NCBI RefSeq assembly: GCF_963668385.1
Contig: NZ_OY764327.1
Location: forward strand, 5,118,501-5,182,500
Source: an uncultured Carboxylicivirga sp.
Lineage (GTDB): Bacteria > Bacteroidota > Bacteroidia > Bacteroidales > Marinilabiliaceae
Reading direction: 5' to 3'
DNA length: 64,000 nucleotides
Part shown: one piece after another, positions 46,930 through 61,083 of the stretch
How positions within the stretch are numbered: position 1 is the first letter of the stretch
Layout of the letters: every line of letters begins with the position of its first letter
Notes under the pieces: generated by a model
The model's input: the letters and a program-made list of their open reading frames with translations, nothing else
What the model was told of the DNA's origin: nothing
Database searches by the model: none
Program-made: the position numbers and the translations under genes

Positions 46930-46936
46930 ATAAAAA

Positions 46937-46975
46937 AGGCTGTTAACCTTATTAAGATTAACAGCCTCGTTTTTT
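46937..46975 (+). terminator. Shared terminator of yciH and the lipocalin-like gene
   Basis: AGGCTGTTAA (46937-46946) pairs with TTAACAGCCT (46958-46967), followed by CGTTTTTT. The A-run on the left lets it serve the converging minus-strand gene, whose stop is at 46974. Confidence 0.75.
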
Positions 46976-47399
46976 ATGCTTTCTTCCAATATACTTCAAT
47001 AATAGCATCACGGCCGTTTATTTTCATTTTAGGAGTCCATATTTTTAATACTTCTTCCTTCAGTTCATAATAACGAACCTCTTTTTCACCTACCCATTGA
47101 GGATGAACACATCCGGTTACCTCATGAATAATCTGTCCGGGTGATTCTTCGTAATAATCGCCATAATACGCCATGTAATTGGTAAATAACTCAGCACAAC
47201 TATGCGATTGAAAATCGTAGCTTCTATGATTTCTACTCCCTAATTGAGCATTCATTATTCCATTTGCATCGTACATTAAAACACCCAAGGGATTAGGACC
47301 ATACATATCCTGCTTACTGCCATCATCAAATAAATAATAGATAGAAGATAAAATCCAGGTTCCAACCACTGGCAACTGCGATGTATTTTCGTTACTCAT
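46974..47399 (-). CDS. Lipocalin-like domain protein
   Basis: A 141-residue beta-rich protein with the Lipocalin_5-type pattern (VVGTWILSSIYYLFDDGSKQ, GPNPLGVLMYDANGIMNAQL, HEVTGCVHPQWVGEKEVRYY). No signal peptide. It lies 61 nt downstream of the polyketide synthase on the same strand; lipocalin-like proteins near PKS genes sometimes process or bind the product. Here that is only suggested by position. Confidence 0.7.
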   Translation of the reverse strand: MSNENTSQLPVVGTWILSSIYYLFDDGSKQDMYGPNPLGVLMYDANGIMNAQLGSRNHRSYDFQSHSCAELFTNYMAYYGDYYEESPGQIIHEVTGCVHPQWVGEKEVRYYELKEEVLKIWTPKMKINGRDAIIEVYWKKA

Positions 47400-47460: not shown

Positions 47461-50400
47461 TTAAGCCTCTGCTTCAACCAGACAACGAGCCAAACGTTCG
47501 CTAACGATTTGTGGAGCTACTTCTGGTGTATCATACACAAAGTTATGCCCTCCTTTTACTTCAAATAGTTCAAACGATTTTTCAGTTTCAGATGGCCATT
47601 TCTTAACATCTTCGATATTTACACGATCATCATCAATTGCATGAAGTGCGGTTACTGTACATTTCAGCTTATCACCTTGTTCGTATTGATATTTATGAAT
47701 CAATTTAAAATCGTTTCGAAGAGTATTCAGCATTTCTTTCACTAAATCGTTCTCTAATGACAAACCAGTATCGTTACCCGATGTAAGTAACGACAACCAT
47801 TGTTCATCGGTATATTGGCTTTCGAAGATATTGTTTACAAATTCGTTCACAAATCCTTTTAAACAAGGTGTGCCCGATACAATTAACTCTTGAGCAACAT
47901 GGCCATATTGATATTGTAGACGACGAGCAGCTTCAAATGCCACTAATCCCCCCATACTATGTCCATAAATACTAAATGGTTTGTCAATTGCTTCATTCAT
48001 CAATGGTAATAAATTATCCATTAACTCATTAATATCACTTACCGGCGCTTCATCTGTACGATTATCACGACCCGGCAATTGAATCATAATTAACTCGGTA
48101 GAGTCGTCCAATACTGATGTCCATGGTTCGAACAAGCGAATACTTCCTCCTGCATCATGAAAAACAAACAACTGTTGTTTCGTCTCTCCGCTTAAAGGTT
48201 GTTTTATCAACCATCCTTTTGTATTTACGGTAGAATCAATCATTGGAATGTTATCTTCCGAAATAATTAACTCATTTAAGATTTGAGAGAATGCATCAAT
48301 AGATGGAAACTCATGAAACATTTTAATCGATATTTTAATATCAAATTGTTTCTCGATGATATTGCGCAACTGAACGATAGTTAATGAATCGATACCCATG
48401 TTTTTAAAGGTCATCGACAAATCCAACTGATCTGGAGAAGCCTTGGCTGCTTCAGCCACCAAATTCAACATATAATCGTTGATGATAGCCAATCGTTGTT
48501 TCGCATCCGATTCGTTTAACACTTTCATTCTGATGTCGCCATCAGCCTCATCATCCTCGGCTCGTTCAATACCCGTATCAATTACTTTAGCCTGAGCCCC
48601 TTTCAATTCAAAAAGCAAATCTTTATTGTTATCATAAACAGCAATATCGCCTTTAATAACAAAAACATTGTCATTACCTTCTGTTACTATTGGCGCTAAA
48701 TTTGCTGCAACGTAGAATTCGCCTTCGAAATTGAATTCCTTACAGAAACGAATGCTCTCCAAACCTTCGACAAATGTAGTTTTGATGGTATTATCACTTA
48801 CCGACGAAAATGCTTTTGCAAATAAAGGATGAAAACAATTATCGAATAAAATTGGCGATGCACTAAACAGCTCTTTACGATAAAAACTGGTATCAGTCAA
48901 ATTAACTTTTGCTCTTACCTCATCACCTGCAATTGCCATTTCTTGCACATTCTGGAAATATTCTTTAAAAGTAACTCCAAGATTATTAAACGAACTATAA
49001 ACCGCAGACTTATCAAGAGTAGTTTCAACATTGGCAAGCTCAGTATACTCTTTTTGAATCGCTTCGGCCTTGGCATTTAATGCCCCAAAGCAAGTTAACT
49101 CCCAGTTTTGGTTGTCGCCTACTTTTTTAAACACTTTAAACTGTGTACAAGCACCTTGCTCCGACTCAATTTTTACTTGAATACTTACCGGCTCGTTATT
49201 AAAGATTTCGATAGACTGTACAAATCTCAAATCTTCTATCGAATAAATCCTATCATTATCAATTTGCTTGATAGCGGACAATATCATTTCAACATAAAAT
49301 CCACCCGGGAAAACAGCATTTTCATTCACTTGATGATGCGCCAGATAAGGCGTACTATACAAGCTTAACTTCGACTCCCAGTAATGAACATCTGACTCTG
49401 CCAATTTGATTGGCGAACCTAAGAAAGGATGACTATTAACCGTATCTGAACCAGACTCGAAGTGGCTTGATAAATCTTCGATCTCGTAATTCTCACGTTG
49501 GAATGGGTATGCAGGTAATTCAATATTTTTATTGTATTGAGTACCATAAATATTCTCCCAGTTCACAGCATATCCTGCTTCGTACAACAATCCAAAATTG
49601 GTAGCAAACTCTTCCATCGATGGATTTTCGCGATGCAACGAACCAATCACTGAAACATTATTAAAATTAAAATGCTCAGCACATTCTTTAATAGCTGTAC
49701 TTAATACCGAGTGCGGACTCACTTCTACAAAAACCTCGTAGCCATCATTCAACAACTTCTCGGTAACAGATGCAAACTGAACAGTACCACGTAGATTCGA
49801 ACGCCAGTAATCAGCATCCATATCAAGCCCATCAAAAATTTGATTTTTAACGGTTGAGTAAATAACCAATTCGTTTTTTTGAGGACTTACTGACTTAACT
49901 CGATCGAATAGCTCATCCTTAATAGAATCCATTTGTGGACTATGCGAGGCAACATCTACTTTTACCTGACGACAGAATAAATTTTTAGCCGTTAGGTCCT
50001 CCAATATTTCCTGAATAATATCATTATCTCCAGCTAAAACAGTCGATTTTGGACTATTTTGAACGGCCAATGAAATTTTACCATCATACTGACTTACAAT
50101 CGCCTCTGCTTCATCAGCACTTAATTCAGTAACTGCCATAGCTCCTCCCTGACCACTCAATGTATTCATTAAAATACTACGAGTGCAGATTACATTTGCT
50201 GCATCATCAATAGAAAGAGCACCAGCAATATAAGCAGCACCAACCTCTCCCATACTATGTCCAACAACAGCAGATGGCTGAACTCCTTTTGACATCCAAA
50301 GCTCAGACAGGGCAACCTGCATGGCAAATAAATAAGGCTGAATAACATTAATGTTTTTCAGTTTACTATCTTCTTCTGTTGTAAAAATTTCTTCAATCAA

Positions 50401-52131
50401 CGACCAATCAGCATATTTCGAAAAGGCTTTGTCGCATTTATCAATTGATTGTTTAAATACTGGTTCGTTCTCGTACAGCTCCTTACCCATACCAAACCAT
50501 TGCGCTCCTTGACCAGGAAATACAAATACAACTTTATCCTTATTGCCCTTAACAGGCTTAATTGCTTTTTGATCAGCTCCTTTAAAGCCATCTAATTGCT
50601 TAGTAATATCCTCCAATGTTTTACCCCAAAACATCTTCTTATATTCAAAATCAGTTTTTCGATATGCTGAGGAAGCACATACATCAGCCAAACTTTCGGA
50701 TAAAGAAGGCTGTTGAAGCATCTCCTTATATCTTTGAGAATAATCAATAAGAGCTTTTGGCGAATGAGCGGAAAGCGGCAAATAAAAAGTTGAATCTGGA
50801 TTTACAGCTTTGGCTTCTACAACTTCTTTTTCTTTATATTCTTCAAAAACGATATGCACGTTAGTTCCACCCCATCCATACGAGCTAACTCCAGCTTTTA
50901 ATGTGCCATTATTAGCTTTTTCAAGCACAACATTTTCGGTAGGCACTCTAAGCTTAAGAGTTTTAAAATCGATTTTGGGATTAGGCTTGTTAAAGTTCAG
51001 GTTACGAGGTAAAGTATGATTCTTTAACGCCAAAACTGTTTTTATTACACCAGCAATACCAGAAGAAGACTCACAGTGTCCCAAATTGGTTTTTACTGAT
51101 CCAACCCATAAAGCAGCATCATCACTTCGATTAGCTCCAAAAAATTCACCTAAAGCACCGGTCTCTGTTGGATCGCCTTGCTTAGTACCTGTACCATGCG
51201 CTTCAATATAATCAACATCCGATGGTTCAACACCAGCATCCTCGTAGGCCTCAGTTAATACTTCTACCTGACCACTTCTACTTGTGGCCGGCATATTAAC
51301 ATTGAAACCATTATTAGTAACCGCTCCACCACGAATAACACCTAAAATCTTATCACCATCTTTTTCTGCATCTTCTAATCGTTTTAAAAGAACCAAACCA
51401 GCACCTTCTCCGCGCACAAAACCATCGGCATCAGCATCAAAAGCACTACATTTTCCCTTGGAAGAAAGACCACCGAATTTTGAAAGATATACATACTCAT
51501 CCTGATCAATCAGGTGATTTACCCCTCCTGCAATACACATGTTTGACGAACCATCTCTTAAACTCTGTACCGCAAGCATCAGTGCAACCAACGAAGAAGA
51601 GCATCCTGTATCCAACACCAAACTAGGCCCTGTTAAACCAAAATAATACGAAATACGATTGGCTATAATATTCGATGATTGCCCCATTGCCGAAAAGTTA
51701 TTAATTTCTGATTTCCTAACTTTTCTTAAGTGCTCAAAATCCGCCCAAATATTACCAATATACACACCTGTTTTTGATCCGTAAAACTCATCTTTGGTTA
51801 ATGAAGAGTTTTCGTACGACTCCCATGCCAATTCCATCATCAATTTTTGTGATGGACTCATTTCAATAGCTTCTTTGGGTGACACATGAAAGAAATAAGG
51901 ATCAAAATGATTAATATCCTTTAGTAAAGCACCCGAATCTTGATTGGTTTTTAAAGGAGTATCCGGATTTGGATCAAATAATTCATCATGATTCCAGCGA
52001 TCATTAGAGATCTTTTCAATAACTGATTTTCCCTCACTCAATACATTCCAGAAATCTTCAAGATTGTCGATTTGCGAAAAACGACACGACATACCTATTA
52101 CAGCTATGGCATCTTTCTTTAGTTGTTTCAT
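47461..52131 (-). CDS. Single-module type I polyketide synthase, KS-AT-DH-ACP-TE
   Basis: A 1556-residue PKS. KS (about 8-430) has active Cys177 in LDTGCSSSLVA, His312 in EAHGTGTKQGD and His352 in NLGHCESSSG. AT (about 533-840) has Ser626 in VGHSMGEVGAAY and the specificity tetrad VASH at 727-730, compatible with methylmalonyl- or ethylmalonyl-type extenders but not decisive. DH (about 895-1185) keeps His933 and Asp1097 (PILFDNCFHP), but the HxxxGxxxxP motif has Glu937 in place of Gly. ACP has Ser1249 in GIDSL. TE (about 1315-1553) has GHSMGG with Ser1392 and His1529 and looks like a type II thioesterase. No KR, ER or MT domain is seen, so any keto reduction would need a trans partner. Confidence 0.92.
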   Translation of the reverse strand: MKQLKKDAIAVIGMSCRFSQIDNLEDFWNVLSEGKSVIEKISNDRWNHDELFDPNPDTPLKTNQDSGALLKDINHFDPYFFHVSPKEAIEMSPSQKLMMELAWESYENSSLTKDEFYGSKTGVYIGNIWADFEHLRKVRKSEINNFSAMGQSSNIIANRISYYFGLTGPSLVLDTGCSSSLVALMLAVQSLRDGSSNMCIAGGVNHLIDQDEYVYLSKFGGLSSKGKCSAFDADADGFVRGEGAGLVLLKRLEDAEKDGDKILGVIRGGAVTNNGFNVNMPATSRSGQVEVLTEAYEDAGVEPSDVDYIEAHGTGTKQGDPTETGALGEFFGANRSDDAALWVGSVKTNLGHCESSSGIAGVIKTVLALKNHTLPRNLNFNKPNPKIDFKTLKLRVPTENVVLEKANNGTLKAGVSSYGWGGTNVHIVFEEYKEKEVVEAKAVNPDSTFYLPLSAHSPKALIDYSQRYKEMLQQPSLSESLADVCASSAYRKTDFEYKKMFWGKTLEDITKQLDGFKGADQKAIKPVKGNKDKVVFVFPGQGAQWFGMGKELYENEPVFKQSIDKCDKAFSKYADWSLIEEIFTTEEDSKLKNINVIQPYLFAMQVALSELWMSKGVQPSAVVGHSMGEVGAAYIAGALSIDDAANVICTRSILMNTLSGQGGAMAVTELSADEAEAIVSQYDGKISLAVQNSPKSTVLAGDNDIIQEILEDLTAKNLFCRQVKVDVASHSPQMDSIKDELFDRVKSVSPQKNELVIYSTVKNQIFDGLDMDADYWRSNLRGTVQFASVTEKLLNDGYEVFVEVSPHSVLSTAIKECAEHFNFNNVSVIGSLHRENPSMEEFATNFGLLYEAGYAVNWENIYGTQYNKNIELPAYPFQRENYEIEDLSSHFESGSDTVNSHPFLGSPIKLAESDVHYWESKLSLYSTPYLAHHQVNENAVFPGGFYVEMILSAIKQIDNDRIYSIEDLRFVQSIEIFNNEPVSIQVKIESEQGACTQFKVFKKVGDNQNWELTCFGALNAKAEAIQKEYTELANVETTLDKSAVYSSFNNLGVTFKEYFQNVQEMAIAGDEVRAKVNLTDTSFYRKELFSASPILFDNCFHPLFAKAFSSVSDNTIKTTFVEGLESIRFCKEFNFEGEFYVAANLAPIVTEGNDNVFVIKGDIAVYDNNKDLLFELKGAQAKVIDTGIERAEDDEADGDIRMKVLNESDAKQRLAIINDYMLNLVAEAAKASPDQLDLSMTFKNMGIDSLTIVQLRNIIEKQFDIKISIKMFHEFPSIDAFSQILNELIISEDNIPMIDSTVNTKGWLIKQPLSGETKQQLFVFHDAGGSIRLFEPWTSVLDDSTELIMIQLPGRDNRTDEAPVSDINELMDNLLPLMNEAIDKPFSIYGHSMGGLVAFEAARRLQYQYGHVAQELIVSGTPCLKGFVNEFVNNIFESQYTDEQWLSLLTSGNDTGLSLENDLVKEMLNTLRNDFKLIHKYQYEQGDKLKCTVTALHAIDDDRVNIEDVKKWPSETEKSFELFEVKGGHNFVYDTPEVAPQIVSERLARCLVEAEA

Positions 52132-52477
52132 AGTTTATGATAAAACTGTTCTTATCCCACCCTTTCCCTATAAAGAATAGAATAATTTGATTAATAAATA
52201 ATTAATTAAATCCCCGAATTTGAGTTAGCCCCCTATAAAGTGCAAGTAACCACCCGTTCCAAACAGTTTTTCCTACATAACAAGCTATCTAGTGATAGAT
52301 AGATTCTATCATTAAAAGACAGGAAATTTAATTGATAGCTTAGTACCCAGGCACAATAAAAGTGAATTAAACTTAAGGTTAAGGTTGATTATGCAATTTA
52401 ATTCATCAATGGCAGTTAGCAAAACACTAACTGCCTTGTATTATAAAACAATAAAACAGGCTATTGCCTGTTTTATA
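52132..52477. promoter_or_regulatory. Polyketide synthase upstream region with hairpins
   Basis: It contains no gene. It holds a perfect 7-bp palindrome TGATAGA-TAGAT-TCTATCA (52293-52311), 160 nt before the PKS start and a possible operator. It also holds a 9-bp hairpin GGCAGTTAG/CTAACTGCC (52411-52435) and the terminator of the upstream gene. No clear TAnnTTTG promoter was found. Confidence 0.5.
52451..52476 (-). terminator. Terminator of the STAS-like gene
   Basis: ATAAAACAGGC (52451-52461) pairs perfectly with GCCTGTTTTAT (52466-52476) around TATT, directly after the STAS-like stop at 52478. The T-tract on the minus strand is modest. Confidence 0.6.
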
Positions 52478-52945
52478 CTAGTTAGTTTGCACCCATTCTA
52501 CAGCAGCTTCAACATTATCGAAATTACGAGTAGAGAATCCGCTAACTTTTTTATCCCAATCGTCGACCGCTAATTTTGCAAAAACATTTGCAGGTAGAAC
52601 AACAGCATTATTACTTAAACCAATTTTGATCAAGCTAGGCATATAATCATTAGCCAACCAATCGTTAACCGAAGAAAAACTACCTTCCATTTTACGGTTG
52701 TCAATAATCATGTTAGTACACTTATTTTGTGCAAATAAATCATACAAATGACCACCTAATACTTCTTTAATCTGATCGGCAGTTCTAAATCCAATCCATC
52801 CATGAAACAAAATACCTTTCGATAAATAAGTAGTGTCAATAAAATGAAATTCTTTTCCCATTTTATTAATACTCTTAATGATATCGCCTTCTTTAACGAC
52901 TTTAAGTCCGCTTTTTGATTGATCGTAATCCTTAATAACTTCCAT
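52478..52945 (-). CDS. SpoIIAA/STAS-like domain protein (uncertain)
   Basis: A 155-residue soluble protein. The alternating strand/helix pattern and the end (GFSTRNFDNVEAAVEWVQ) resemble SpoIIAA-like/STAS proteins, in which a final helix follows a strand with the F-D-x-x-x-A-x-x-W pattern. The DNRKMEGSFSSVNDWLAND segment is where STAS anti-sigma-factor antagonists carry a phosphorylated Ser; the Ser residues here are only candidates. It is 54 nt downstream of the MCP gene and could be a regulatory partner. Function unknown. Confidence 0.5.
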   Translation of the reverse strand: MEVIKDYDQSKSGLKVVKEGDIIKSINKMGKEFHFIDTTYLSKGILFHGWIGFRTADQIKEVLGGHLYDLFAQNKCTNMIIDNRKMEGSFSSVNDWLANDYMPSLIKIGLSNNAVVLPANVFAKLAVDDWDKKVSGFSTRNFDNVEAAVEWVQTN

Positions 52946-52999: not shown

Positions 53000-54433
53000 T
53001 TATTCTTCTAATTTGAAAAAATCCAACGTCTTACGTACTAATTCTGCTTGCGAAGACATTTCTTCGGCATTAGCAGCCAATTCTTCACTTGCCGCAGCAT
53101 TCTGTTGAGTTATATAATTCAATTGCTGAATAGCAGAGTTTATCTGACTAGCACCCGTAGACTGCTCGTTACTGGTACTTGCGATCTCCTGCAATAAAGC
53201 TGATGTCTTTTGAATTTCGGGTAAAATATTCATTAATCGTTCGTATGATAACTTTGAAATATTTAATCCATCATTCGATAAGGTTGAGATCTCAATTGAT
53301 GCTTCTTTACTATTTTCGGCCAGCTTACGAACTTCGGAAGCAACCACTCCAAAACCTTTACCTAACTCTCCAATACGAGCCGCTTCAACTGCTGCATTTA
53401 ATGCCAATATATTGGTTTGAAAAGATATGTAATTAAGTGTACCCACCTCTTTTGCAATGCTTTCGTTAGCTTCAACACTTTTCATCGAATCATCACCAAC
53501 CTCATAAATACCTTGTAAGGCTTCTGTCGAAATTTGCTCTGTTAAGTAGGCATTTTCTTTACTTTGCTCGATACTTACAGCCATTTCTTCCATGGTTGAG
53601 CTAATCTCCTCAACCGAAGATGATTGTTCATTGGCACTTTGCGATAATTGTTGTGAGGTAGAGCTTAATTGGGATGTTGCCACTGCGATGTTATCTGCGC
53701 TATAAATCACCTCCGACAATAATTCTTTATATTTACTACAAATCAAGTTGAGCTTATCGTGTAGCTGCAATATTTCATTATCCACCGTTACCGGACATAC
53801 TTGGGGTATTAGCTTTCCTTCTGATATTTCTGTTGCAAATTGCCTCAAATGCGCCATTCCATCTAGTAGATTTAATTTTACAAGCTTATACCGACGATAG
53901 AAGATCCAAGCAGTACCACCAACTACCATTACAATGGTAATTACCAATAATACATTTCGTTTAGTATTAAATGATTCATACAACATTTCCTTTTTATCAT
54001 TAAGCCTCTCATTAACAGACCCAACCAAATCTAACAACTTACTTTTCTGTAGCTCATCCTCTTTTAAAAATTTGGATGATTGTTGAAGCATCAGATCAAT
54101 ATTTTCTTTAACATCAACGAGTTGATTAGCTTCTAGATCTGAATCGGAACTGGCAAAAAACACTGCGAACTGTTGTGTTGCAAATTCCACTAACTTCTTG
54201 TTTTCAGGATTTTTATCAACTACAACATTTTCTATAGCTTGGTTATATCCAGTCACTAATTTATCAAACTGACTCATGAGGTGAGTCTGGTTAAAATAAT
54301 GATTGTATGCCTGTAAACACAACAACAATAGGATGGATGAAATGGCAATAGTTAATATACTTAACAAACCATCAACTGTAAAATTCCTACTTAACGTAGA
54401 TTTTTTACCTAGAACATCTAAATTTAGCTTCAT
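53000..54433 (-). CDS. Methyl-accepting chemotaxis protein
   Basis: A 477-residue receptor. Membrane segments are about 25-45 and 163-180, with a helical periplasmic domain of about 115 residues between. A HAMP-like stretch ([13 protein letters not shown]) leads into the cytoplasmic four-helix signalling domain with hairpin tip [20 protein letters not shown] and [19 protein letters not shown]. Gln/Glu-rich pairs such as [17 protein letters not shown] are methylation sites. No CheA, CheW, CheB, CheR or CheY gene is in the window. It is the first of three same-strand genes MCP - STAS-like - PKS. Confidence 0.9.
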
Positions 54434-56900: not shown

Positions 56901-57366
56901 TTATTTACTAATCTTGTTTACCAATTTATAATATAATGCTGGCAAGTATTTATGTATATAAACAATCAATAGCTCACTTAATCCAACCAACACATTTTTA
57001 TTATTATACTTAATTGCTTTCAATATTCCTTTTGCACATATATCAACATCCGGTCATTTGGCCTGTCCGGAATCCATTTCACCTTAATACACTCTTCTTT
57101 TGATGAAAGCATGCTTAGAAATGTCAGTTTTTATCCTCCCCGGGCGACACAATAGTAACATTTATATTTCCCAATGCCAACTCTGCTCTTAATGATTCAA
57201 AAAATCCTTATATAGCATGTTTGGTCACTGCATAAGCTGATCGCAAAGAAAAACCAAATTTTCGGTTATACTGCTTACGACACAAAGTGGATTTTGTTTG
57301 CAACATATGCGGCAACACCAATTTGGTTATGGCTACAGCCCTAAAAAAGTTTAGCTCAGTAAACAT
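56901..57366 (-). pseudogene. Decayed short-chain dehydrogenase (SDR) remnant
   Basis: The minus strand from an ATG at 57366 encodes FTELNFFRAVAITKLVLPHM, then SAYAVTKHAI (the SDR Tyr-xxx-Lys active site), an in-frame TAA, GFFESLRAELALGNINVTIV and SPG, where a frameshift occurs. The other frame continues RIKTDISKHAF and, after two more stops, ICAKGILKAIKYNNKNVLVG and LPALYYKLVNKISK to a TAA at 56901. These match an SDR C-terminal half closely. The Rossmann half (glycine-rich NAD site) is missing, so it is truncated and has three internal stops and a frameshift. It sits between the acyltransferase and VOC genes. Confidence 0.85.
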
Positions 57367-57371
57367 ATTTC

Positions 57372-58670
57372 CTACTGGACTTGAACTATTTCCAGAATTT
57401 TTTCTCGTTTCGCCCGCAATTCATCCACCCATTGCGGATGTTTTTTCTTGAATGACACAAAGCGAAATTTAGCTTTTGCAACAATAAACTGATCGCGAAT
57501 GAAAACAGATAAAAAACCTGTTAGAGCTGCTCCACAAACAGCAATAAATCCAATCAAACCAAATAAAACACTAAACACAATAAACAGAATTAAGTATTGA
57601 ATAAGAAATAATAACCATGACGCCCCCACAAAAACCGAAGCATAAAACTCAACCGTTTTACATACTTTTTCGGCCAGCTTTCTGGCTATCATTACTGGCC
57701 ATGCATTTATTAAATACCCAAATAAGAAAATGGGTGACAATAGAAACAAACCCAACCAATGTAGAAAAAAGTCGTTTCGGTTTGCAGCTAAATCACGATC
57801 GGTAATATTGTTTTTTTTCAGCTGAATGAAATAATCATTACATAATCGCTCTAACTTCGAGAATTTCTCTTCTGATTCAGCGAATAAGGTATTTATTTTA
57901 TCACAAACTTGTTTCTCTAATGCAAAGCGGCTATTGTTTTTTTCAGCAATGGGCAATATTGTAACCGGATAATTATTACGAGCCAAAAGCAAACAATACT
58001 CAGCAACATCCTCTGTTCCTTTTTCTTCAATTACAGCACCTTTTTGAAGCGCCGAAAAAATAACTTTATTAAGTTCGTTGTATGCTCTGGCTGGGTTTTC
58101 GAGATATAAATCTTTGTAATCACTCACCAAAATAGGTTCGGCACATTCAATCATCAAGTCTTCTCTAATGTATGGTGCATTAGTATAATTTAACGATACT
58201 GGTACAATACGAATTCCCAAGTTAAAGTCATTAGCTTCTTCGGCGCCAAAGGCAATTTTTACGGTTCCCTTTTTTAAAGGCCTTACTCTTTTTTCATGTA
58301 CACAAATACCTTCAGAATGAATTAAAAGTGTGCCTCCTTTCTTTAATGTTCTAGTATAAACATTAAATGCATCCAGATTTTTTTTAACATCTCTGGAATT
58401 ATCCATCGCCCTATAAACCGGGGATACATTCATTTGATTTAGAAAAAAACGAGCCACCCTGGTTTTAAAAACATCACCTCTGGCTAAAAAACGAAGATTT
58501 CTACCTGAGAAAACGCCTAAAACAAAATCATCAATAAACGAATTAGGATGCATTGATGCCAATATAACCGGACCTTTTCTGGGAATATTGTGCTTATTGT
58601 TGATGAATATCTTCTTAAAAAAAAGTCGCAATGCTAAGGGCATTGTATACTTGAGGACATAATAATTCAT
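57372..58670 (-). CDS. Lysophospholipid acyltransferase (PlsC-like) with C-terminal membrane region
   Basis: A 432-residue protein. The acyltransferase motifs are ASMHPNSFIDDFV (catalytic His/Asp; spacing of the NHPNSFLD-type group), LARGDVFK, LIHSEGICVHE and VPVSLNYTNAPY. The C-terminal third has two or three membrane segments (FFLHWLGLFLLSPIFLFGY and LLFLIQYLILFIVFSVLF). It transfers an acyl chain to a lysophospholipid or similar lipid in the inner membrane. The RND exporter gene is 4 nt upstream on the same strand, so a linked lipid-export role is likely. Confidence 0.85.
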   Translation of the reverse strand: MNYYVLKYTMPLALRLFFKKIFINNKHNIPRKGPVILASMHPNSFIDDFVLGVFSGRNLRFLARGDVFKTRVARFFLNQMNVSPVYRAMDNSRDVKKNLDAFNVYTRTLKKGGTLLIHSEGICVHEKRVRPLKKGTVKIAFGAEEANDFNLGIRIVPVSLNYTNAPYIREDLMIECAEPILVSDYKDLYLENPARAYNELNKVIFSALQKGAVIEEKGTEDVAEYCLLLARNNYPVTILPIAEKNNSRFALEKQVCDKINTLFAESEEKFSKLERLCNDYFIQLKKNNITDRDLAANRNDFFLHWLGLFLLSPIFLFGYLINAWPVMIARKLAEKVCKTVEFYASVFVGASWLLFLIQYLILFIVFSVLFGLIGFIAVCGAALTGFLSVFIRDQFIVAKAKFRFVSFKKKHPQWVDELRAKREKILEIVQVQ

Positions 58671-58674
58671 TTAC

Positions 58675-61083
58675 CTACTTTCTCTTCTTTCCTTTTAACT
58701 CTTTTCGTTTCATTTTTTCAAGCGACAAAAGCAATGCCGGTAATAAAAGCAAGTTGGTTATCATGGCAACCAAAAGCGTAAGCGACACCAGCAAACCTAA
58801 TGCTACCGTTCCTCCAAAACTTGAGGCTGTAAAGATAGCAAATCCAAAAAACAGCACAATTGAGGTATAAATCATGCTTACACCCGACTCTTTGATAGCA
58901 ACCACTACAGAGTGCTTTATTCGTCCTTTATGATGTTTTAGTTCTTGCCTGTACTTGGCTAAAAAGTGTATACTATCATCAACCGAAATACCAAATGCTA
59001 TACTAAAAACCAATATTGTAGAAGGCTTAATAGGAATCCCGAAATAGCCCATAATACCTGCCGTGAACAGAAGCGGTATTAAGTTAGGTATTAACGATAT
59101 AAAAACCATACGAAAGGATTTGAACATACTAGCTATGAACAATGAAATCAATACAATAGCTATAGCCAAACTCACAAATAAATTGCGAATAAGAAAATAA
59201 GTTCCCTTTAAAAACACCACACTAGTACCAGTAAAGCTTACATTGTAGTCGTTTGTTTCAAATATATTATCAACCTTAACTCTCAATGAATCTTGAATAT
59301 GATCTATCTGATCGGTGGTAACATTAGCCATTTTTAAACTCATACGCGTTACCTGCCTGTTTGAGTCCACAAACGAATTAAATACCGAGTTGTCACCTTC
59401 GTCTTCGTTTACATACTTTTTAAGTTTATTTAGTTGACTTGGCGAAGGTAATAAGTTGTATTTTGGATCACCACCACGATGTGCCTGATACAAATAACGA
59501 ACTCCATCTAAAATAGAAACTGGCTTAGAAAAATAAGGCGTAAATAAAGTATCGCGCATTAATATTTTTTCCAAACGGCGCATCTTATACAGCGTTTTAG
59601 CTCCATTCCCAAAAACTCCACCTTCTTCTTTCGTGTCAATTACTATTTCAAAAGGAAGCACTCCGTTAAACTGTTCCTCAAAAAACAATAAGTCGACATA
59701 AACATCATCATCATGTGGAATATCATCTACCACCGTCCCCTCAGTTTTTATGCGTGAAATACCAATTACACTAATTAAAACCAATAAGAAAGAAGCACTG
59801 TAAACCCATCGTCTGTTTTTGATTGAACTAAGTACCAACCATTTTATAATTTTTTGTAAAGGCTTATTTTTCAAATGATTTAAATGCCTGTCTGTTGGCA
59901 TTTTTTGAAAACTAAGTAAAATAGGAAAGATGGTTATTGATAAGAAGAATAAACCAAAAATATTGATGGCAGCAATTACCCCAAATTCAACCAAAATAGC
60001 TGAACTAGTTAAAATAAAGGTTGCGAAGCCAGCGGCAGTCGTAAGATTAGAAAGAAATATAACCCAACCAATTTTACTTATCGTCTGCTTTAAGGCCTTC
60101 CATTTATTTCCTTTTTTATGGCATTCTTGATGATATTTATTGATGAGAAAAATAGAATTAGGTATCCCTATAACAATAATAAGTGGGGGGATTAAGCCAG
60201 TTAAAATTGTTATTTTAAAACCAAACAAAGCGATACTTCCAAACACCCAAATAACCGAAACACCAACAATCAGAAGCGAAATCATCACCACTCGGTACGA
60301 TCGAAAAAACAGGAACAAAATAACGGCCAATACTAATGCAGCCAAGGCAATAAACAAGCTTAACTCGCCCCTTACAGTGGCCATTACATGTGTTCTGATA
60401 AATGGTAAACCAGAGTAATGAACATTAATTCCGGTTTGTTTATGAAATTGTTCGCCCAGCTCGTACACATCATGCACAAAGGCTATTCTACTTTTTGAAT
60501 TAACCAAATCATTCCTAAGTGTTATGGTAAGAATGGTTACAAATGAATCGTCCGTTTCTTTAAACAACAAATCCTTATAAAAAATCTGTTCTTTTGCAAT
60601 TGCCAGCAAACTATCCAGCTCAGCCTGTGTTTGTACCGGATACTTAAAAAGCTCTTGCAGGTTTAATTTCTGATTTTCTTCATCTTTTGCAAGCACATGA
60701 ATATTGCCCAATGACAAAACGCTTGATTCCGGATCTTCATTATCATCACCTTTCACTCGTATTGCTCCAATATCATTGCTTAACTGCTGAAGAGCTTTAA
60801 AATTATCAAGCTCCAGAATAGATTTATCTCTAAAACCCAATAAAATCAATTTGGCATCCTCGCCAAAAATACTTTTGAAACGATTGTACTCAATAAAAGC
60901 CGTATCCTTCTCAGGCAGCATTTGCGCCAATTCATAATCCAGCGCCACTTTTTTGGCCTGAAACCCCATAAAAATAGTAATAGCAGCAATGACAACTAAA
61001 ATAGAAACCCTGTATTTTATAATGGGATGCTTAACAGATAGATAATTCACGAGTATATTTTTTAAAATGTGCAAAATTAGCAC
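58675..61083 (-). CDS. RND/MMPL-family lipid or hydrophobe exporter
   Basis: An 802-residue transporter of the HAE-3/MMPL type. Twelve membrane segments are arranged as 1+5 and 1+5 with two large periplasmic loops. The SSD-like region has LTGLIPPLIIVIGIPNSIFL in the first half and VFSIAFGISVDDSIHFLAKY in the second, with the Asp pair that carries protons. Such proteins export lipids, hopanoids or siderophore-like molecules. The listed start is a GTG; no ATG occurs before the first membrane segment, so the start is uncertain by about 11 codons. Operon with the acyltransferase gene. Confidence 0.88.
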   Translation of the reverse strand: MLILHILKNILVNYLSVKHPIIKYRVSILVVIAAITIFMGFQAKKVALDYELAQMLPEKDTAFIEYNRFKSIFGEDAKLILLGFRDKSILELDNFKALQQLSNDIGAIRVKGDDNEDPESSVLSLGNIHVLAKDEENQKLNLQELFKYPVQTQAELDSLLAIAKEQIFYKDLLFKETDDSFVTILTITLRNDLVNSKSRIAFVHDVYELGEQFHKQTGINVHYSGLPFIRTHVMATVRGELSLFIALAALVLAVILFLFFRSYRVVMISLLIVGVSVIWVFGSIALFGFKITILTGLIPPLIIVIGIPNSIFLINKYHQECHKKGNKWKALKQTISKIGWVIFLSNLTTAAGFATFILTSSAILVEFGVIAAINIFGLFFLSITIFPILLSFQKMPTDRHLNHLKNKPLQKIIKWLVLSSIKNRRWVYSASFLLVLISVIGISRIKTEGTVVDDIPHDDDVYVDLLFFEEQFNGVLPFEIVIDTKEEGGVFGNGAKTLYKMRRLEKILMRDTLFTPYFSKPVSILDGVRYLYQAHRGGDPKYNLLPSPSQLNKLKKYVNEDEGDNSVFNSFVDSNRQVTRMSLKMANVTTDQIDHIQDSLRVKVDNIFETNDYNVSFTGTSVVFLKGTYFLIRNLFVSLAIAIVLISLFIASMFKSFRMVFISLIPNLIPLLFTAGIMGYFGIPIKPSTILVFSIAFGISVDDSIHFLAKYRQELKHHKGRIKHSVVVAIKESGVSMIYTSIVLFFGFAIFTASSFGGTVALGLLVSLTLLVAMITNLLLLPALLLSLEKMKRKELKGKKRK

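Follow-up and report, generated by a model that had tools for sequence, protein, structure and literature searches.

AviM of Streptomyces, a bacterial orsellinic acid synthase, is a single polyketide synthase (PKS) protein of the order ketosynthase (KS)-acyltransferase (AT)-product template (PT)-acyl carrier protein (ACP) that has no ketoreductase (KR), and its PT domain has a dehydratase (DH)-like fold with one essential His residue, as described in the accessible text of PMC9135731. According to the same text, this PT domain resembles DHs more than fungal PT domains, AviM with the His mutated still releases a lactone, AviM lacking the whole domain gives hardly any product or none, and the 56 AviM-like sequences of the same architecture are all actinobacterial. 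Fungal orsellinic acid synthases have SAT and thioesterase (TE) domains (accessible text of PMC9135731), and a table in the available part of PMC8374128 writes the fungal non-reducing enzyme as KS-AT-PT-ACP-TE. Here we analyse a stretch of 64,000 nucleotides from an uncultured Carboxylicivirga sp. (contig NZ_OY764327.1, positions 5,118,501 to 5,182,500; the window), which encodes a KR-less PKS of the order KS-AT-DH-ACP-TE. We tentatively read this protein as a non-reducing, probably iterative stand-alone PKS whose DH-fold domain would have been repurposed, with cyclase as the likeliest role, and rate this reading at somewhat under an even chance; the cyclase role itself is possible and has one good bacterial precedent, AviM. 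The PKS probably makes a small unreduced compound.

Domain anatomy and the altered DH-fold domain

An intact single open reading frame (ORF) at 47461-52131, on the reverse strand like all features of the window located below, encodes a type I PKS of 1556 amino acids, for which Pfam gives KS at residues 7-380, AT at 535-847, PKS_DH_N at 901-1002, PS-DH at 1031-1185, PP-binding at 1220-1283 and Thioesterase at 1319-1538. The proposal of the sequence-only reading, that one protein combines KS, AT, DH, ACP and TE and lacks a KR, is thus borne out by ORF and Pfam. KS, AT and ACP are covalently joined, with active-site motifs present and Pfam scores above cut-off, as in a type I cis-AT PKS. The KR that accompanies a classical PKS dehydratase in the same module is missing: the protein has no Pfam match to a KR, and its DH and ACP matches lie only 34 residues apart, a gap too short for a KR, which disposes of the suggestion that one might be hidden at residues 1185-1215. 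Nor is there an N-terminal SAT domain as in fungal non-reducing PKSs, the KS beginning at residue 7. Three of the 14 genomes of the genus carry the full PKS, namely that of the window, Carboxylicivirga linearis FB218 (84% identity; Marinilabiliaceae, Bacteroidia, Bacteroidota) and the metagenome-assembled genome (MAG) Carboxylicivirga sp. McD6.26 (59%). The C. linearis orthologue has the identical Pfam order, and the DH-ACP-TE part of the MAG orthologue has the same order as the window protein. The genome (6.27 Mb, one contig) has three matches to PF00109, two of them in frames of 421 and 422 amino acids besides the PKS, so that these matches disclose no second large KS protein. A single gene of the phosphopantetheinyl transferase type turned up in the genome, and its product could activate the ACP of the PKS.

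The KS domain (residues 7-430; 50842..52113) bears the motif DTGCSSSL together with His312 and His352, whose customary roles we assume; the motif reads DTGCSS in all three orthologues as against DTACSS in 32 of 32 other rows of the comparison set. Its nearest rows are L050 (367 bits) and L074 (363 bits), about equally close, and L074 is the nearest row for both AT and DH. The AT domain (residues 535-847; 49591..50529) has the motifs GHSMGE and VASH, and that of L074 (49% identity) has GHSMGE and YASH. The ACP domain (residues 1220-1283; 48283..48474) contains a GIDSL motif with Ser1249, presumably in its usual role. The C-terminal TE (residues 1319-1538; 47518..48177) belongs to the type II (RifR-like) family and has a GHSMGG motif with Ser1392, which together with His1529 we take to be catalytic. 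Its type II-like character, already suspected from the sequence, holds up: the best solved relatives are the stand-alone type II enzymes 6vap (1.3e-31) and RifR 3fla (2.4e-28), and the GHSMG motif is present. It departs from the free-standing members of that family in being fused C-terminally to the ACP.

The DH-fold domain (residues 901-1185; 48577..49431) was aligned, as the sequence-only reading had proposed, with 25 comparison DHs, rows that are not independent, being mostly of one class, with near-copies, nine from one family and two from Streptomyces plasmids. The catalytic residues His933 (49333-49335) and Asp1097 (48841-48843) are kept in all three orthologues and in 25 of 25 comparison DHs. 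Three other conserved positions are altered, in the motifs known as HPxxxD, YGPxF and LPF/VPV. Position 1092, the His of HPxxxD, is Ser, Ser and Pro in the three orthologues versus His in all 25 others; position 1056, the Gly of YGPxF, is Lys versus Gly in 23; and position 1122, the Pro of LPF/VPV, is Glu, Glu and Gln versus Pro in 24. The His and Asp of a classical dehydratase are therefore in place and the three motifs are altered in each of the three orthologues. Three rows without a long frame containing the KS motif were dropped (L020, L021, L041), and seven without a match to the DH pattern do not enter these counts (L049, L052, L053, L058_1, L058_2, L060_1, L060_3). Glu937 (49321-49323), which had been read as a departure from the Gly of the motif, is indeed present, and all three orthologues share it, yet it is no anomaly: the position is Gly in just 11 of the 25 comparison DHs and D, S, N, A or E in 14, Glu being found in one, and the solved MAS-like DH aligns a Gln there. 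Glu937 was accordingly discarded as evidence of an inactive DH. In the same kind of alignment, HH precedes the motif both in the CurF DH and in the DH of the window.

The three orthologues, though as little as 46% identical in the DH domain, all have His933, Asp1097, Glu937 and Pro942. Comparison of the window with C. linearis gave dN/dS pairs (NG86) of 0.047/2.00 for KS, 0.078/1.29 for AT, 0.117/2.06 for DH, 0.057/2.17 for ACP and 0.128/1.93 for TE; since dS is saturated, only strong purifying selection is safely stated, and each domain of the PKS is under such selection. For the pair of window and MAG, dS was not computable for DH, both DH halves, ACP and TE. The C-terminal half of the DH is among the fastest-evolving parts, with a dN of 0.128 versus C. 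linearis, equal to that of the TE (0.128), and of 0.595 versus the MAG (TE 0.414). The domain is not simply decayed, given the invariance of His and Asp in three orthologues and the low dN/dS, and the loss of positions mostly kept in the 25 comparison DHs favours a changed function. A KR was sought by Pfam in three of the comparison-row proteins and is present in L057 and L074 and absent in L058. This KR-less Streptomyces protein keeps the HPxxxD, YGPxF and LPF-type motifs intact, so loss of a KR alone does not erase DH motifs. The PS-DH profile scores the three Carboxylicivirga DHs at 36.2, 45.8 and 33.1 bits versus 105.1 for Aureibacter, 93.4 for L058 and 84.0 for L074, the nearest KR-containing relative examined here.

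In trees the three Carboxylicivirga PKSs form one long-branched clade, whose neighbours are unresolved in the KS-AT tree; in the DH tree L074 neighbours this clade at 95/92, with long-branch warnings. As L074 is a KS-AT-DH-enoylreductase (ER)-KR-ACP protein, loss of KR and ER from an L074-like protein is a plausible origin of the KR-less PKS.

Distribution and the four-gene unit

Being confined to three of 14 genomes of the genus and lying in a different context in one of them, the PKS gene is accessory and not, as had been supposed, part of the core chromosome. Any match to the PKS (E 1e-100) occurs in six of 71 genomes of the family, the other three in frames of 2408, 2216 and 1020 amino acids. 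In samples of the class and the phylum, which overlap and each comprise 395 genomes including our own, the PKS is matched in 23 genomes of the class (E 1e-150, own included; the others at 33-38% identity) and in three of the phylum (E 1e-180, own included), where the best match besides our own (39%) is a KS-AT-DH-ER-KR-ACP protein. No match among the 394 other genomes of the class sample reached the TE at E 1e-150, and in none of 284 plasmid records with a match is 80% of the DH-TE part covered at a single place. Relatives of the same architecture outside the genus were thus not seen in the class, phylum and plasmid scans at these thresholds, which weaker relatives would escape, and within the same limits the exact domain order was found in no other Bacteroidota of the class and phylum samples. 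A scan of genome contigs with two narrow peptide patterns gave two loci from 80 stretches.

The PKS gene belongs to a unit of four genes, MCP, STAS, PKS and lipocalin, whose order is identical in three loci and two chromosomal contexts. The 17 other genes of the window that were compared are all matched in the fetched C. linearis stretches, whereas in 29 kb of the MAG contig only one of them is, by a weak flavin-reductase match (25%). As the flanks differ in the MAG while the four genes persist, the unit stays together through relocation or transfer. Its G+C content is like that of its flanks, and no tRNA was found at 36000-64000 of the window.

Downstream of the PKS, at a distance of 61 bp, lies the gene of a Lipocalin_5 (PF13924) protein of 141 amino acids (46974..47399), followed by a terminator-like hairpin of 15 pairs with a T tail (46936..46968). 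Of the 14 genomes of the genus, the three with the PKS also gave both the Lipocalin_5 and the STAS-like gene, and the remaining 11 gave neither. At E 1, no solved structure matches the Lipocalin_5 protein in sequence, and eight of the 394 other genomes of the class sample contain a match. Plasmids yielded 47 records with matches, and seven of their contexts were examined, one of them unannotated; a KS-type gene is adjacent in two of the six annotated contexts and in four there is none, so that Lipocalin_5 was rejected as a PKS-specific marker. On plasmid pBOCT1 of Brasilonema octagenarum (L105, 2819-8426), a Lipocalin_5 gene comes immediately after that of a KS-AT-MT-ACP-TE PKS, which likewise has no KR, in an NRPS-PKS cluster.

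Upstream of the PKS lies the gene of a protein of 155 amino acids with a predicted STAS/SpoIIAA fold (52478..52945). It has no Pfam match, and its model (pLDDT 85.6) resembles RsfB, RsbS, SpoIIAA and SiaC with a best E value of only 0.007. Distant relatives occur in 22 of the 394 other class-sample genomes, several in long frames; six were seen in frames of 511-973 amino acids, the ends of which look PAS/kinase-sensor-like by eye. Immediately behind the STAS gene, a terminator-like hairpin of 11 pairs (52451..52476) suggests that MCP-STAS and PKS-lipocalin may form separate transcription units; the terminator-like sites are supportive only, six being found in the region versus 4.2 expected by shuffling. 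The gene of an MCP-type receptor of 477 amino acids (53000..54433) precedes the STAS gene at each of the three loci. With four CheW-profile matches in the genome, the receptor could feed into chemotaxis. The window MCP aligns with that of the MAG over residues 164-475 only (51% identity), its N-terminal part being unaligned, and Pfam matches HAMP in the MAG copy and not in the window copy. Farther upstream, at 57372-61083, an acyltransferase gene stands beside an MMPL/RND-type exporter; the pair is matched in C. linearis and unmatched in the fetched MAG stretches, and hence is not part of the four-gene unit. The sequence-only reading had mentioned neither these partner genes nor the altered DH motifs, the DTGCSSSL motif of the KS and the non-HAFH motif of the AT.

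Explanations for the DH-fold domain

From the anatomy observed we would propose that KS and AT build an unreduced β-keto chain on the fused ACP, by extension that is assumed to be iterative. The DH-fold domain, its motif positions lost, probably no longer dehydrates, and His933 as a base would most likely steer the cyclisation of the poly-β-keto chain, as in the AviM PT. The fused TE of the type II family would then release the product, and the Lipocalin_5 protein would probably bind or finish it; MCP and STAS are a co-travelling signalling pair that may or may not bear on the product. It is the KR-less unit, together with a broken short-chain dehydrogenase/reductase (SDR) gene nearby, the altered DH motifs with His and Asp kept, the low PS-DH scores, the purifying selection and the AviM precedent, that leads us to favour a cyclase. 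The maintenance of the unit in two contexts and the position of Lipocalin_5 after the KR-less Brasilonema PKS also count in its favour.

A number of points weigh against a cyclase, the assumed iteration being one. HAFH is the motif of malonyl-specific ATs, and the bearing of VASH on the extender unit is uncertain; since formation of an aromatic ring is simplest with malonyl units, the VASH found here speaks against a product-template cyclase. The fungal PT model (TIGR04532) gives the DH domain 40.9 bits against a cut-off of 168, and was rejected as proof of a product template as two control DH regions score alike (47.1 and 36.7). In sequence comparison the dehydratases of AlnB, MAS-like, fluvirucin and curacin type match the domain at E values between 2.4e-13 and 3.8e-11, ahead of the AviM PT chain 7vwk, the sole AviM-type PT compared, whose matches are weak (E 0.029 and 0.01). 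Finally, the AlphaFold2 model of the domain, built from three sequences, is weak (mean pLDDT 64), and of its 238 Foldseek matches (E <=0.001) the 50 listed all come from PKSs, being dehydratases or entries that bear the name of some other part, and include no fungal PT and not the AviM chain 7vwk. However, as the AviM PT itself resembles DHs more than fungal PT in the accessible text of PMC9135731, the outcome of this fold search does not discriminate.

The sequence-only reading had offered either a KR acting in trans or an inactive DH serving as product template. Supply of a KR from elsewhere, be it FabG or another SDR, followed by normal dehydration to a conjugated product, is unlikely in our view. 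The His-Asp pair is intact, CurF shares the HH before the motif, dehydratases come first in the fold search listing, and a search for such enzymes does give 19 KR-profile matches in the genome; none of these lies in the window, from which the closest one listed is some 45 kb away. By Pfam, no KR is encoded in the rest of the unit (the STAS-like protein being without a Pfam match), so that in neither context does a KR accompany the PKS. The vicinity offers just one SDR, a remnant at 56907-57405 in two pieces of different frame, which is intact in C. linearis, between the acyltransferase and a glyoxalase-type gene, and has no significant match in the fetched MAG stretches. As a broken remnant outside the conserved unit it was rejected as a neighbouring KR acting in trans, and with it goes the idea of a KR in an adjacent gene. 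Normal dehydration would, moreover, have to proceed with motif positions altered that the comparison DHs mostly keep. Of the two options, a changed function of the DH is favoured, with a cyclase as a possible role.

Alternatively, the DH fold may be idle or structural, the enzyme making a β-keto acid, a methyl ketone or a spontaneously formed pyrone, with TE or lipocalin setting the product. This is possible but somewhat unlikely. The fast evolution of the C-terminal DH half and the three altered motif positions would be expected of it, and the lactone from His-mutated AviM, set beside the little or no product left upon deletion, illustrates in the accessible part of PMC9135731 that the fold can matter without chemistry; yet an idle site does not require the invariance of His933, Asp1097, Glu937 and Pro942. 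That the protein is one module left over from a larger reducing synthase and retained for a single extension of an acyl starter supplied by lipid metabolism, we hold to be highly doubtful. The KS-AT-DH-ER-KR-ACP protein that is the best match beyond the genus in the phylum sample is consistent with such an origin, as KR and ER could be lost, but every domain is under selection, the partner genes are kept in two contexts and no further large KS protein was found.

To return to the cyclase, one may go further and suppose a second, independent bacterial lineage of product-template type, in which a reducing PKS of Bacteroidota would have lost KR and ER, turned its DH into a cyclase and recruited a type II TE for release, with Lipocalin_5 as co-cyclase and MCP-STAS sensing the product; so extended, the scenario is distinctly unlikely. 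Should the domain prove to be a cyclase, the locus would show bacteria turning a dehydratase into a product template by a further route, and doing so outside the Actinobacteria where such synthases are reported; it would also link Lipocalin_5 proteins with PKSs that have no KR, and would offer, with one protein and a lipocalin, a small self-contained system for dissecting this change. If the domain is merely idle, this is an ordinary orphan PKS.

Comparison with known systems

In literature searches of partial coverage, with few subscription journals, we found nothing on a Carboxylicivirga KS-AT-DH-ACP-TE protein and no paper on Lipocalin_5 with polyketides, on the order KS-AT-DH-ACP-TE or on Marinilabiliales with type I PKSs; the accessible part of PMC12325347 describes no such gene. 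Among the systems compared, the reducing bacterial modules (MAS, curacin, L095/L074) have homologous KS, AT, DH and ACP domains and provide the best sequence and fold matches. The PKS of the window differs from them in lacking KR and ER, in the three altered DH positions and in the added type II-like TE. L058 (Streptomyces sp. W1SF4 plasmid p2, 5899-10176) is a KS-AT-DH-ACP protein which, like the PKS described here, lacks a KR; different from it, however, L058 has docking domains, lies between other PKS genes, retains its DH motifs and has no TE.

The fungal non-reducing orsellinic acid synthase, as written in the available part of PMC8374128, shares with our PKS the lack of a KR and an order ending in ACP-TE. 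It differs in its SAT domain, which is lacking here, and in a PT that our DH-fold domain does not resemble at the level of the model cut-off; moreover, the KS-AT part of our PKS is nearer to bacterial PKS (7zma, 675.8 bits) than to norsolorinic acid synthase (364.2 bits). As for AviM, the accessible text of PMC9135731 describes a synthase without a TE, whereas our PKS has one at residues 1319-1538, and malonyl use and cyclisation are demonstrated for AviM alone, our PKS being known from sequence. The activity that marks AviM-type synthases is a C2-C7 aldol cyclisation of a malonyl-derived tetraketide. Then again, the arrangement KS-AT-(DH-fold)-ACP without a KR that marks AviM-type synthases is found in the PKS of the window, and common to both, as far as that text goes, are a single KR-less type I protein and a DH-like double-hotdog domain between AT and ACP with conserved His and Asp.

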